A stretch of 64,000 nt of DNA from positions 1 through 64,000 of the forward strand of contig JAAYDW010000057.1 in the NCBI GenBank assembly GCA_012729055.1, given 5' to 3'. Both the position numbers and the translations under genes were made by a program. Source of the stretch: Deltaproteobacteria bacterium (GTDB taxonomy: Bacteria > Desulfobacterota > Syntrophia > Syntrophales > Smithellaceae). The notes below the pieces were generated by a model that worked only from the letters and a program-made list of their open reading frames with translations, had not been told where the DNA came from and did no database searches. The first letter of the stretch is position 1. Each line of letters opens with the position of its first letter. Shown in pieces: positions 28,236 to 31,082 of this stretch.

Positions 28236-28664
28236 ATGCCGGCATCCTCCATGAAAATTATCTTTCTGAAAATGTCTGTTTTGTTCCTGGCGTGGCTGCT
28301 GCTTGCCGTCCTGCTTTCCGGATGCGCCGCTGCGCCGGGCGCCGCAGAGGAAAACACGATGCGCGAAAAGCGGATTCTGTCCACGACGGAAAGCGCGCAG
28401 GTGATCGTTCGGTTTAAAGACGAGGTTGAGGATCCGTCGCGGCCGGACTTTCTGGCGGATCTTTCCCGGACGGTTGCGGCGCGGGTCGATTATGTCCGGC
28501 CCATGTCGGGCGGCGCGCATGTTCTTCGCGTGGAGACGGCAGGCGGCCGGGGAAGGATCGAAGATCTGCTCACGAAGCTCTCGCAAAGGCCGGATGTTGT
28601 GTATGTGGAACAAGATGCGGTTATGATGCATCGTCAAAAAAATAAGGAAGACCCTTTGAGGTGA
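28236..28664 (+). CDS. Lipoprotein resembling a free-standing subtilase propeptide (I9-like)
   Basis: A 142-residue lipoprotein with signal peptide and lipobox LLSGC. The mature part ([12 protein letters not shown] to [13 protein letters not shown]) has the beta-alpha-beta pattern of inhibitor I9/subtilisin propeptides. It parallels the propeptide of the protease encoded next: both contain a V..MSG..HVL stretch and end in (D)(A/V)V.Y.E.DA.M. It may chaperone or inhibit that protease in trans. ATG 28236 follows AAGGA; ATG 28251 is a possible alternative. Five bases separate it from the protease start, indicating one transcript. Confidence 0.65.
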
Positions 28665-28669
28665 AGCTG

Positions 28670-31033
28670 ATGAAAAAGAAAGCGATTGGTCTTTTGCTGT
28701 TTCTGGGGGTGGCGGTCCTCGGCGGTCTGCTGCTGATGAACCCGTCTCTCTCCGGCGCCGGCAGTTCCGCCGATCCGTCTTTCGGGCAGTCTTGCAGCGC
28801 CGACGGAGGCACCGACCGGATCATCGTTGCGTACCGCGATCCATCATTCGTTCGAAGTGCGGCCACGGCTCTTCAAGGCGCCCATCCGGCTGTGAGCGAA
28901 CGGATTCGCGGCCTCGGCGCCAGGGCCGGCATGGAGCTTGCGCATGTTCGGTTCATGTCGGGCGACGGGCATGTCCTCAAACTGCCGCACCGGATGACGC
29001 TTGCCGAGGCCCATGACGTGGCCGCGGCCCTCAAAAAAGATCCCGCGGTTTTGTATGCCGAGCCGGATGCGCGGATGCGGTCTCTGCTCACGCCCAGCGA
29101 TCCGCGCTACGCCGAACAGTGGCATTACCGGGCGCCGCCCGCCGAGCCGGGCGGCGCCAATCTGCCCGCCGCCTGGGATAAGACGACCGGCGCCGCGGAC
29201 GTGGTGGTGGCGGTGATCGATACCGGCTACCGTCCGCATGCGGACATCGACAGTTCGCGGATTGTTACGGGATATGATTTTGTCTCCGACGCGCTCATGG
29301 CCAATGACGGAGACGGGCGCGATCCGGATCCGGCCGATCCCGGCGACTGGATCACGGCGGACGAAAGCGCATCCGGACCTTTTCTGGGGTGCGATGTGAC
29401 CGACAGCACCTGGCACGGCACGCACGTCGGCGGAACGATCGGCGCCAAAACGGACAATGGCCTGGGTGTGGCCGGCGTGAACTGGACGTCGCGAATTCTG
29501 CACGCGCGCGTGCTCGGAAAATGCGGCGGCTACCTCTCCGACATTGCCGACGCCATTCGCTGGTCGGCCGGTCTGGCTGTGCCGGGCGTTCCGGAAAACG
29601 CCCATCCGGCCAAAGTGCTGAACATGAGCCTCGGCGGCTCCGGCCTCTGCGGTCCGACGTATCAGAGCGCCATTAACGCCGCCGTGGCGGAAGGCGCGGT
29701 GGTTGTTGTGGCGGCCGGCAACAGCAATGTCGATGTGGCTTCCTCCCGGCCCGCCAACTGCGACAACGTCATTGCCGTGGCGGCCACGAACCGCGCCGGC
29801 GGCAAAGCTTCCTACAGCAACTACGGAACGAAGGTGAAGATCGCCGCGCCCGGCGGGGACGGCGCAGCGTCCGACCGCATTTTATCCACGCTCAACGCGG
29901 GTACGACAACGCCCGGCGCCGACAGCTATGCTTTTTATCGTGGAACCAGCATGGCTGCGCCGCACGTGGCAGGCGTAGTTTCCCTGATGCTTTCCCGGAC
30001 GCCCACCCTTACCCCGGCGCAGATTCTGTCGCGCCTCCAGACGACGGCGCGCTCCTTTCCCGCGGGAACCGGTTCCGATTGTACGACCGCTATTTGCGGC
30101 GCGGGCATCGTCAACGCCGCCGCGGCCGTTGAAAACCCGGTGCCGGCGACGACCGGTCTCCAGCCGTCATCCGTCACCGCGGGCAGCGGCGCTTTTACGT
30201 TGACGGTGAACGGAAGCAATTTTGTCGCCGACTCCGTTGTGCGCTGGAACGGGGCGGATCGGGAAACGACGTTTGTGTCCGGCACGCAAGTGACGGCGTC
30301 GGTCACGGCTGACGATACGACAACCGGCGCAGTGGTTCCCGTGACCGTTTTTAATCCGACGCCGGGCGGCGGAACGTCAAATGCCCAGAATATCACCGTC
30401 AACAATCCGGTTCCGGAGATTACCTCTCTCAGCCCGTCTTCCAAAGCGCCGGGCGGTAACACGTTCACACTGACCGTCAACGGGAACAGGTTTGTCGGAA
30501 CTTCCGTTGTGCGCTGGAACGGAGCTCCCCGGGCGACCACGTTTGTTTCCTCCACAAAACTGACGGCGGTCATTCTCGCCGCGGACATCACGGACGAGGG
30601 AGACATTCTGATCACCGTTTTCAATCCGGCGCCTGCGGGCGGCGTCTCGGCCGCGAAGACGTTTTCCGTGAAGAAGATCCTCGCCGCGGCCGGAAGCGGC
30701 GGCGGCGGGTGTTTCATCGCCACGGCCGCCTTCGGCACGCCCTCTGAAAAGCACGTCGCCCTTTTGCGGACCTTTCGCGACCGCTGTCTTCTGACATCAA
30801 CGGCGGGACGGACGTTTGTCGATTTTTACTATACGGTCAGTCCGCCGATTGCGGAAGTGATTGCCGGAAATGAGGCGCTTCGGTTTGTCACCCGGTTGGG
30901 ATTGCTGCCGCTGGTCGGCGCGGCCTGGCTGGCGCTGCATTTCGGCGCGGCAAGCCTCCTGGGAGGGGTACTGGCGCTGTTACTGGCGGCGTTCACGATT
31001 CGGCAAATCCGCAGAAAAACGGCCGGAGTCTGA
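28670..31033 (+). CDS. Secreted subtilisin-like serine protease with two IPT-like domains and CFI-box C-terminus
   Basis: A 787-residue S8 protease. In order: signal peptide, I9-type propeptide (about 45-145), and catalytic domain with Asp in [15 protein letters not shown], His in [13 protein letters not shown] and Ser in [14 protein letters not shown]. Two Ig-like IPT/TIG repeats follow, each with the pattern [17 protein letters not shown] Gly-rich spacer leads to [16 protein letters not shown], the CFI-box C-terminal domain, and then hydrophobic segments with a basic end (IRQIRRK), implying membrane anchoring or sorting. ATG 28670 has GAGGTGA at ideal spacing and is preferred over GTG 28661. 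Confidence 0.92.
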
Positions 31034-31052
31034 AAACTTTTTCAGGTTCAGG

Positions 31053-31082
31053 AAAAAAAGGGCTTTTTGCAAGCCCTTTTTT
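31053..31082. terminator. Bidirectional terminator between protease gene and glpC
   Basis: Arms of the form AAAAGGGCTT and AAGCCCTTTT around a short loop, with A-run and T-run flanks. It touches the glpC stop codon, so the two convergent transcripts share it. Confidence 0.88.

Follow-up and report, generated by a model that had tools for sequence, protein, structure and literature searches.

Results

Gene organisation of the lipoprotein-subtilase locus

The window, a stretch of 64,000 nucleotides of a deltaproteobacterial contig (JAAYDW010000057.1, assembly GCA_012729055.1), carries two adjoining genes on its forward strand. The upstream one (28236–28664; ORF and translation, with homologues at the equivalent place in six Syntrophales genomes) encodes a predicted I9-like lipoprotein of 142 aa, for which an alternative start at ATG 28251 is as plausible as that at 28236. 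The downstream one (28670–31033) encodes an S8 subtilase of 787 aa, recognised by Pfam Peptidase_S8 (E 1.5e-52) and by its PDB relatives. The genes lie in different reading frames and are separated by the 5 bases 28665–28669; ORF calls and translations thus agree with the reading frames, coordinates and five-base spacing given in a preliminary description of this DNA. A Shine-Dalgarno-like GAGGTG (28658–28663, forward strand), read directly from the sequence, overlaps the stop codon of the lipoprotein gene and lies 6 bases upstream of the protease ATG. Downstream of the protease gene lies a terminator-like hairpin (31054–31082, forward strand) with a 12-bp stem, a 5-nt loop, a U-run in its 3′ arm and a folding z of −2.1; the consensus terminator scan missed it, probably because the stem absorbs the U-run. 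No sigma-70-like promoter was found in a sigma-70 scan at the gene pair. The layout from 28236 to 31082 reads as a single two-gene unit closed by the hairpin.

The subtilase and its putative surface-sorting tail

The protease scores 179 bits against Peptidase_S8 (cut-off 21.8), and its catalytic motifs are present; its closest PDB relatives are 7w2a (gliadinase Bga1903), 5yl7 and AprV2/AprB2/BprV. It has an I9-like propeptide of its own (residues 50–139; 28817–29086), delimited by an AlphaFold2 (AF2) model with beta-alpha-alpha-beta-beta-alpha-beta topology and by the mature PDB chains, which align from residue 140. This alignment with the mature chains of relatives places P1 at about Leu139, that is, Asp133+6. 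The catalytic S8 domain (residues 177–461; 29198–30052) is assigned by Pfam and translation; in a model of propeptide plus catalytic domain, the catalytic part is poor (mean pLDDT 58.9). It is followed by two CoaZ_rpt_PGGG repeats (NCBIfam NF058597, E 9.2e-59, two stretches), the first spanning residues 490–577 (30137–30400), and by a CFI-box-CTERM domain (residues 681–749; 30710–30916; NCBIfam NF041770, E 1.5e-26). Together with a hydrophobic stretch and a basic end, this domain forms a putative surface-sorting tail.

Such a CFI-box-CTERM tail occurs in the window protease and in four other Syntrophales proteases tested or read, and several other cognate proteases have glycine-rich tripartite tails, one of them above the GlyGly-CTERM cut-off. 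A GlyGly-CTERM tail keeps VesB at the surface of Vibrio cholerae (PMC6219818). In the Nitrospirae protease, the CFI-box tail is spread over two reading frames (L067:8300-8626), which reflects either a sequencing error or a real frameshift.

The lipoprotein carries an I9-like domain

The lipoprotein begins with a signal peptide (28236–28325) ending in an LSGC lipobox (LSGC|AA), a sequence pattern that puts the lipidated residue at Cys30 (28323–28325). The residue at position +2 is Ala, not Asp, and by the +2 rule the lipoprotein would be sorted to the outer membrane. With its signal peptide, a stop codon before the protease gene and no catalytic domain, it is by sequence a separate exported product.

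The I9-like domain covers about residues 54–132 (28395–28631), as delimited by AF2, by hhalign to propeptides and by alignments to PDB prosegments. It contains a helix-capping motif, E125-x-D127, and a hydrophobic residue, Met130, at the P4-equivalent position. Within the domain, AF2 predicts a beta-alpha-beta-beta-alpha-beta arrangement with block pLDDT values of 73–91. This is the prosegment order of elements, so the refuting outcome named in the preliminary description, a predicted fold unlike I9, did not arise; the topology is, however, common to many ferredoxin-like domains. The matches listed by Foldseek and VIA for the model were to generic ferredoxin-like domains (ACT, Lrp, ribosomal S6 and NikR; Z <8), and none of those listed was a prosegment. 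Because the predicted topology is common and these matches are generic, the argument is carried by sequence and not by fold.

Homology of the lipoprotein domain to subtilase propeptides

Lipoprotein and propeptide share the motifs named in the preliminary description, in the same order (IVRFKD, for example). In pairwise BLASTP, lipoprotein and protease are 30% identical over 64 aa (E 3e-6, as a single comparison), and the local score of 72 was reached by none of 5000 shuffles (mean 26.8, sd 4.7, maximum 55). When the own genome was searched with the single sequence, the propeptide was at noise level (E 0.015), near a PilM-like protein (G000:C34, E 0.020) that we discarded as a chance match. 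Profiles are far more sensitive: one built from seven lipoproteins finds the own propeptide at E 2.9e-11 and the propeptides of six relatives at E 1.3e-16 to 1.5e-5, and hhalign of the lipoprotein and propeptide profiles gives a probability of 99.4 and E 1e-21. Against the PDB, the lipoprotein profile matches only four distinct sequences at E<=10, individually weak (E 0.04–0.23); all four are prosegments (of proteinase K, subtilisin BPN′ and subtilisin E), aligned on the YvEeD / E-x-D helix-capping motif. These comparisons establish the mature lipoprotein domain as a homologue of the adjacent S8 subtilase's I9-like propeptide, and the parallel drawn between them in the preliminary description stands.

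The mature lipoprotein domain lies below the Pfam gathering scores for PF05922 Inhibitor_I9 (16.1 bits vs 21.2) and PF22148 Fervidolysin_NPro-like (17.0 vs 21). The protease's own propeptide also falls short (14.4 vs 21), so the Pfam models are insensitive here. No NCBIfam model applies to the lipoprotein in an NCBIfam search. We call the lipoprotein I9-like and do not file it as a member of the Pfam I9 family.

The lipoprotein gene tracks its protease gene

Within the order, the lipoprotein is found at E<1e-50 in 7 of 155 genomes (G000, G010, G015, G018, G021, G030 and G036), which are MAG-based and not phylogenetically independent samples. Protease orthologues occur in exactly those seven, two of them cut by contig ends, and the two genes adjoin in all seven; the other 148 genomes have neither. 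In five other genomes of the order the S8 proteins present are all more distant (E 1e-115 to 1e-50), and the lipoprotein is again missing. Only 4 genomes of the same genus have both genes, so the pair comes and goes as one. Weak matches in four further genomes of the order (G005, G009, G013 and G090; E 0.003–0.009) were not counted, being to the signal-peptide region of ORFs of about 210 aa or to part of an unrelated ORF. In one pair-bearing genome (G015), the lipoprotein is also adjoined by a 667-aa protein (L034:1820-3823) that contains a C39-like peptidase domain and whose C-terminal end is hydrophobic and basic, resembling that of the protease.

Named homologues come from Syntrophaceae, Smithella and a deltaproteobacterium, and further pairs from a Nitrospirae bacterium, Halothiobacillus and another gammaproteobacterium. 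The lipoprotein is otherwise absent among 345 sampled genomes of its own phylum; searches of the Halothiobacillus class (369 genomes) and the Nitrospirae phylum (245 genomes) added more stand-alone genes. Across Desulfobacterota, Nitrospirota and Gammaproteobacteria, 20 of the 22 stand-alone I9-like genes or domains directly adjoin an S8 gene, in either order: the protease gene comes first in G798 and G707, and in G527 the stand-alone gene sits between two S8 genes. The two exceptions are a gene near a contig end (G588) and a domain that ends a DUF3047 protein (G804). The co-occurrence of the pair elsewhere, put forward in the preliminary description as a check, is thus seen both within the order and in Nitrospirota and Gammaproteobacteria. 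The homologue of G021 (L064:5944-6363) has a signal peptide without a lipobox Cys, and that of G588 likewise lacks this Cys, so lipid tethering is not universal in the family.

Two other proteins show the domain in larger chains. In a betaproteobacterial genome (G492), two tandem I9-like domains, an S8 domain and DUF5648 form one chain (L092:955-3165), on its domain content a natural fusion of the two-gene arrangement. In the G804 protein (L101:1495-2469; Pfam E 4e-65 for DUF3047), the I9-like domain is the C-terminus, and no S8 gene was recognised nearby.

Chain ends and the capping motif

In prosegment complexes, the E-x-D residues cap catalytic-domain helices, and the non-prime subsites take up the C-terminal tail (PMC6993865, PMC10580911). 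Counted from the Asp of this motif, the last residue of both solved prosegment chains, 1scj_B (71 aa) and 1spb_P (78 aa), is Asp+6, as computed from coordinates and chain lengths. Among the 22 stand-alone sequences, Asp+6, the P1 position, is also the commonest chain end (8 sequences), and 18 end between Asp+5 and Asp+9. E-x-D or Q-x-D is kept in 21, and 20 have a hydrophobic residue or Ala at Asp+3 (P4). Chain ends, P4 residue and motif of this kind would be expected of a product-like inhibitor that is already cut. The tail of the window lipoprotein runs to Asp+15, the longest in the family, so its chain end does not lie at P1 unless trimmed; this copy would need trimming or a looser fit.

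A probable old separation from the propeptides

The preliminary description had attributed the lipoprotein to a partial duplication of this protease's own propeptide. A tree of 67 I9 domains, built on just 81 columns and with many forks left open, places the window lipoprotein among those of other genomes (98/90); the window propeptide falls among other propeptides (98/97). Constraining the two to pair is rejected (AU p 0.003), which excludes a recent local duplication in this lineage and overturns that attribution. A single clade of all stand-alone forms is not rejected (AU p 0.39). An old separation, followed by co-inheritance or co-transfer with the protease, is the better reading. In G519 (L132:4420-6353), the branches of lipoprotein and propeptide are both very long (2.0 and 2.9), as though the two were diverging in step.

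Discussion

We consider it likely that the lipoprotein is an envelope-tethered, stand-alone mimic of a subtilase propeptide and that it inhibits, in a product-like manner, the S8 protease whose gene directly follows its own. After Sec export, lipidation at Cys30 would leave the I9-like domain tethered by some 25 flexible residues, probably at the outer membrane. By homology, its sheet face and E-x-D motif would dock on the catalytic domain as the propeptide does, and the tail after the Asp, given its length, would lie in the S4–S1 subsites. Protease that matured prematurely could in this way be held inactive while on the periplasmic or envelope side, up to the point at which it has been secreted and its CFI-box or GlyGly-type tail has sorted it to the surface. 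An envelope-anchored inhibitor would suit a protease retained on the surface of the cell that makes it. Affinity may be modest, since the tail residues of the lipoprotein (MMHR or MRHQ) differ from those of the cognate propeptide (MRSL or MFPL).

Propeptides are chaperones as well as inhibitors. This background, together with co-translation just upstream, which would supply the lipoprotein in time, gives some ground for regarding the lipoprotein as a trans-acting, membrane-anchored foldase for the protease instead, with a role like that of lipase foldases or of Aeromonas sobria ORF2, an adjacent gene able to supply chaperone function (PMC5638518). ORF2, however, serves a propeptide-deficient protease, whereas the window protease and other cognate proteases keep a complete propeptide of their own, with which the window enzyme presumably folds; a separate chaperone is thus not obviously needed. 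Since the stand-alone tails are also clustered at P1, pointing to occupancy of the active site, we regard a foldase as unlikely. The lipid anchor and the surface-sorting tails of cognate proteases could also belong to a docking or sorting partner that holds the protease at the envelope, and the G527 gene between two S8 genes would suit an inhibitor of a different protease, paralogous or foreign. We give these roles rather little credence: presence and absence track one specific protease across the order, adjacency is kept despite the reversed gene order in G798 and G707, and the protease has a retention tail of its own. Similarity between neighbouring genes of one operon might finally reflect a recent partial duplication with little function, the lipoprotein being a decaying propeptide copy. 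This explanation is highly improbable, as the rejected pairing of window lipoprotein and window propeptide and the intact family, with motifs conserved across three phyla, both argue against it.

The recurrence of the two-gene arrangement in three phyla suggests an inhibitor that shields the cell from its own enzyme. Extended to Desulfobacterota, Nitrospirota and Gammaproteobacteria as a whole, the inhibitor reading would describe a bacterial family of lipid-anchored, propeptide-derived subtilase inhibitors that, paired with surface-retained subtilases, makes up a mobile two-gene module for self-protection, its chains typically ending at P1 and each born in cleaved, inhibitory form; we put the chances of this wider proposal as evenly balanced. 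Most documented stand-alone propeptide-like subtilase inhibitors are eukaryotic, and a bacterial lipoprotein family tracking its protease gene would explain how Gram-negative cells tolerate surface-retained subtilases. Such inhibitors, naturally separated and detectably homologous to the cognate propeptide, would also make the chaperone and inhibitor roles of I9 domains testable apart, and the family names a set of proteins left unannotated by current Pfam and NCBIfam models.

Comparison with known systems

SUB1-ProM of Plasmodium, POIA1, yeast proteinase B inhibitor 2 and TgMIC5 are, like the lipoprotein, small separate gene products; they have the propeptide fold, whose topology is predicted for the lipoprotein (PMC6993865, PMC10580911). 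The SUB1-ProM/POIA1 type shares with the lipoprotein family the E-x-D/N capping motif, a hydrophobic P4 and a chain end near P1, from which the longer tail of the window protein departs. In the malarial inhibitor SUB1-ProM, the chain stops at +5 (N148 to L153), and the capping residues and P4 are in common (PMC6993865), and it too is encoded beside subtilase genes. Inhibitors of this type, however, are eukaryotic, soluble and without a lipid anchor, whereas the window protein is a predicted bacterial lipoprotein; furthermore, they are described as having no significant sequence similarity to propeptides, while here homology to the neighbouring propeptide is detectable.

The gene layout has bacterial parallels. 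In Tannerella forsythia, small lipoprotein genes for potempins directly precede secreted KLIKK protease genes, as here, and potempins are reported as specific inhibitors of the downstream protease (PMC7296668). They belong to a different phylum and are likened to our protein by description and not by sequence, propeptide homology not being described in that part of the source (PMC7296668). Inhibitor and protease genes are likewise juxtaposed in the SpeB-Spi and Bacteroides fragilis Bfi systems, in which Spi is a propeptide analogue and Bfi1B and Bfi4 are predicted lipoproteins; the proteases, however, are C10 cysteine proteases, and the Bfi proteins are staphostatin-like, not propeptide-like (PMC2873492). 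The external chaperone gene ORF2 of Aeromonas sobria also lies next to a subtilisin-like protease gene, and ORF2 inhibits, its C-terminus sitting at the catalytic site; it is encoded 3′ of a propeptide-deficient protease, whereas the window protease keeps its own I9-like propeptide (PMC5638518).

A bacterial lipoprotein I9 inhibitor was not found in a literature search of partial coverage that included few subscription papers. What appears to be new here is a bacterial lipoprotein form of the known stand-alone I9 inhibitors, outside all Pfam and NCBIfam models. By analogy, the window pair would be laid out like the genes of the potempins, Spi and the Bfi inhibitors and would encode a stand-alone I9 mimic of the kind represented by SUB1-ProM, POIA1 and yeast proteinase B inhibitor 2.
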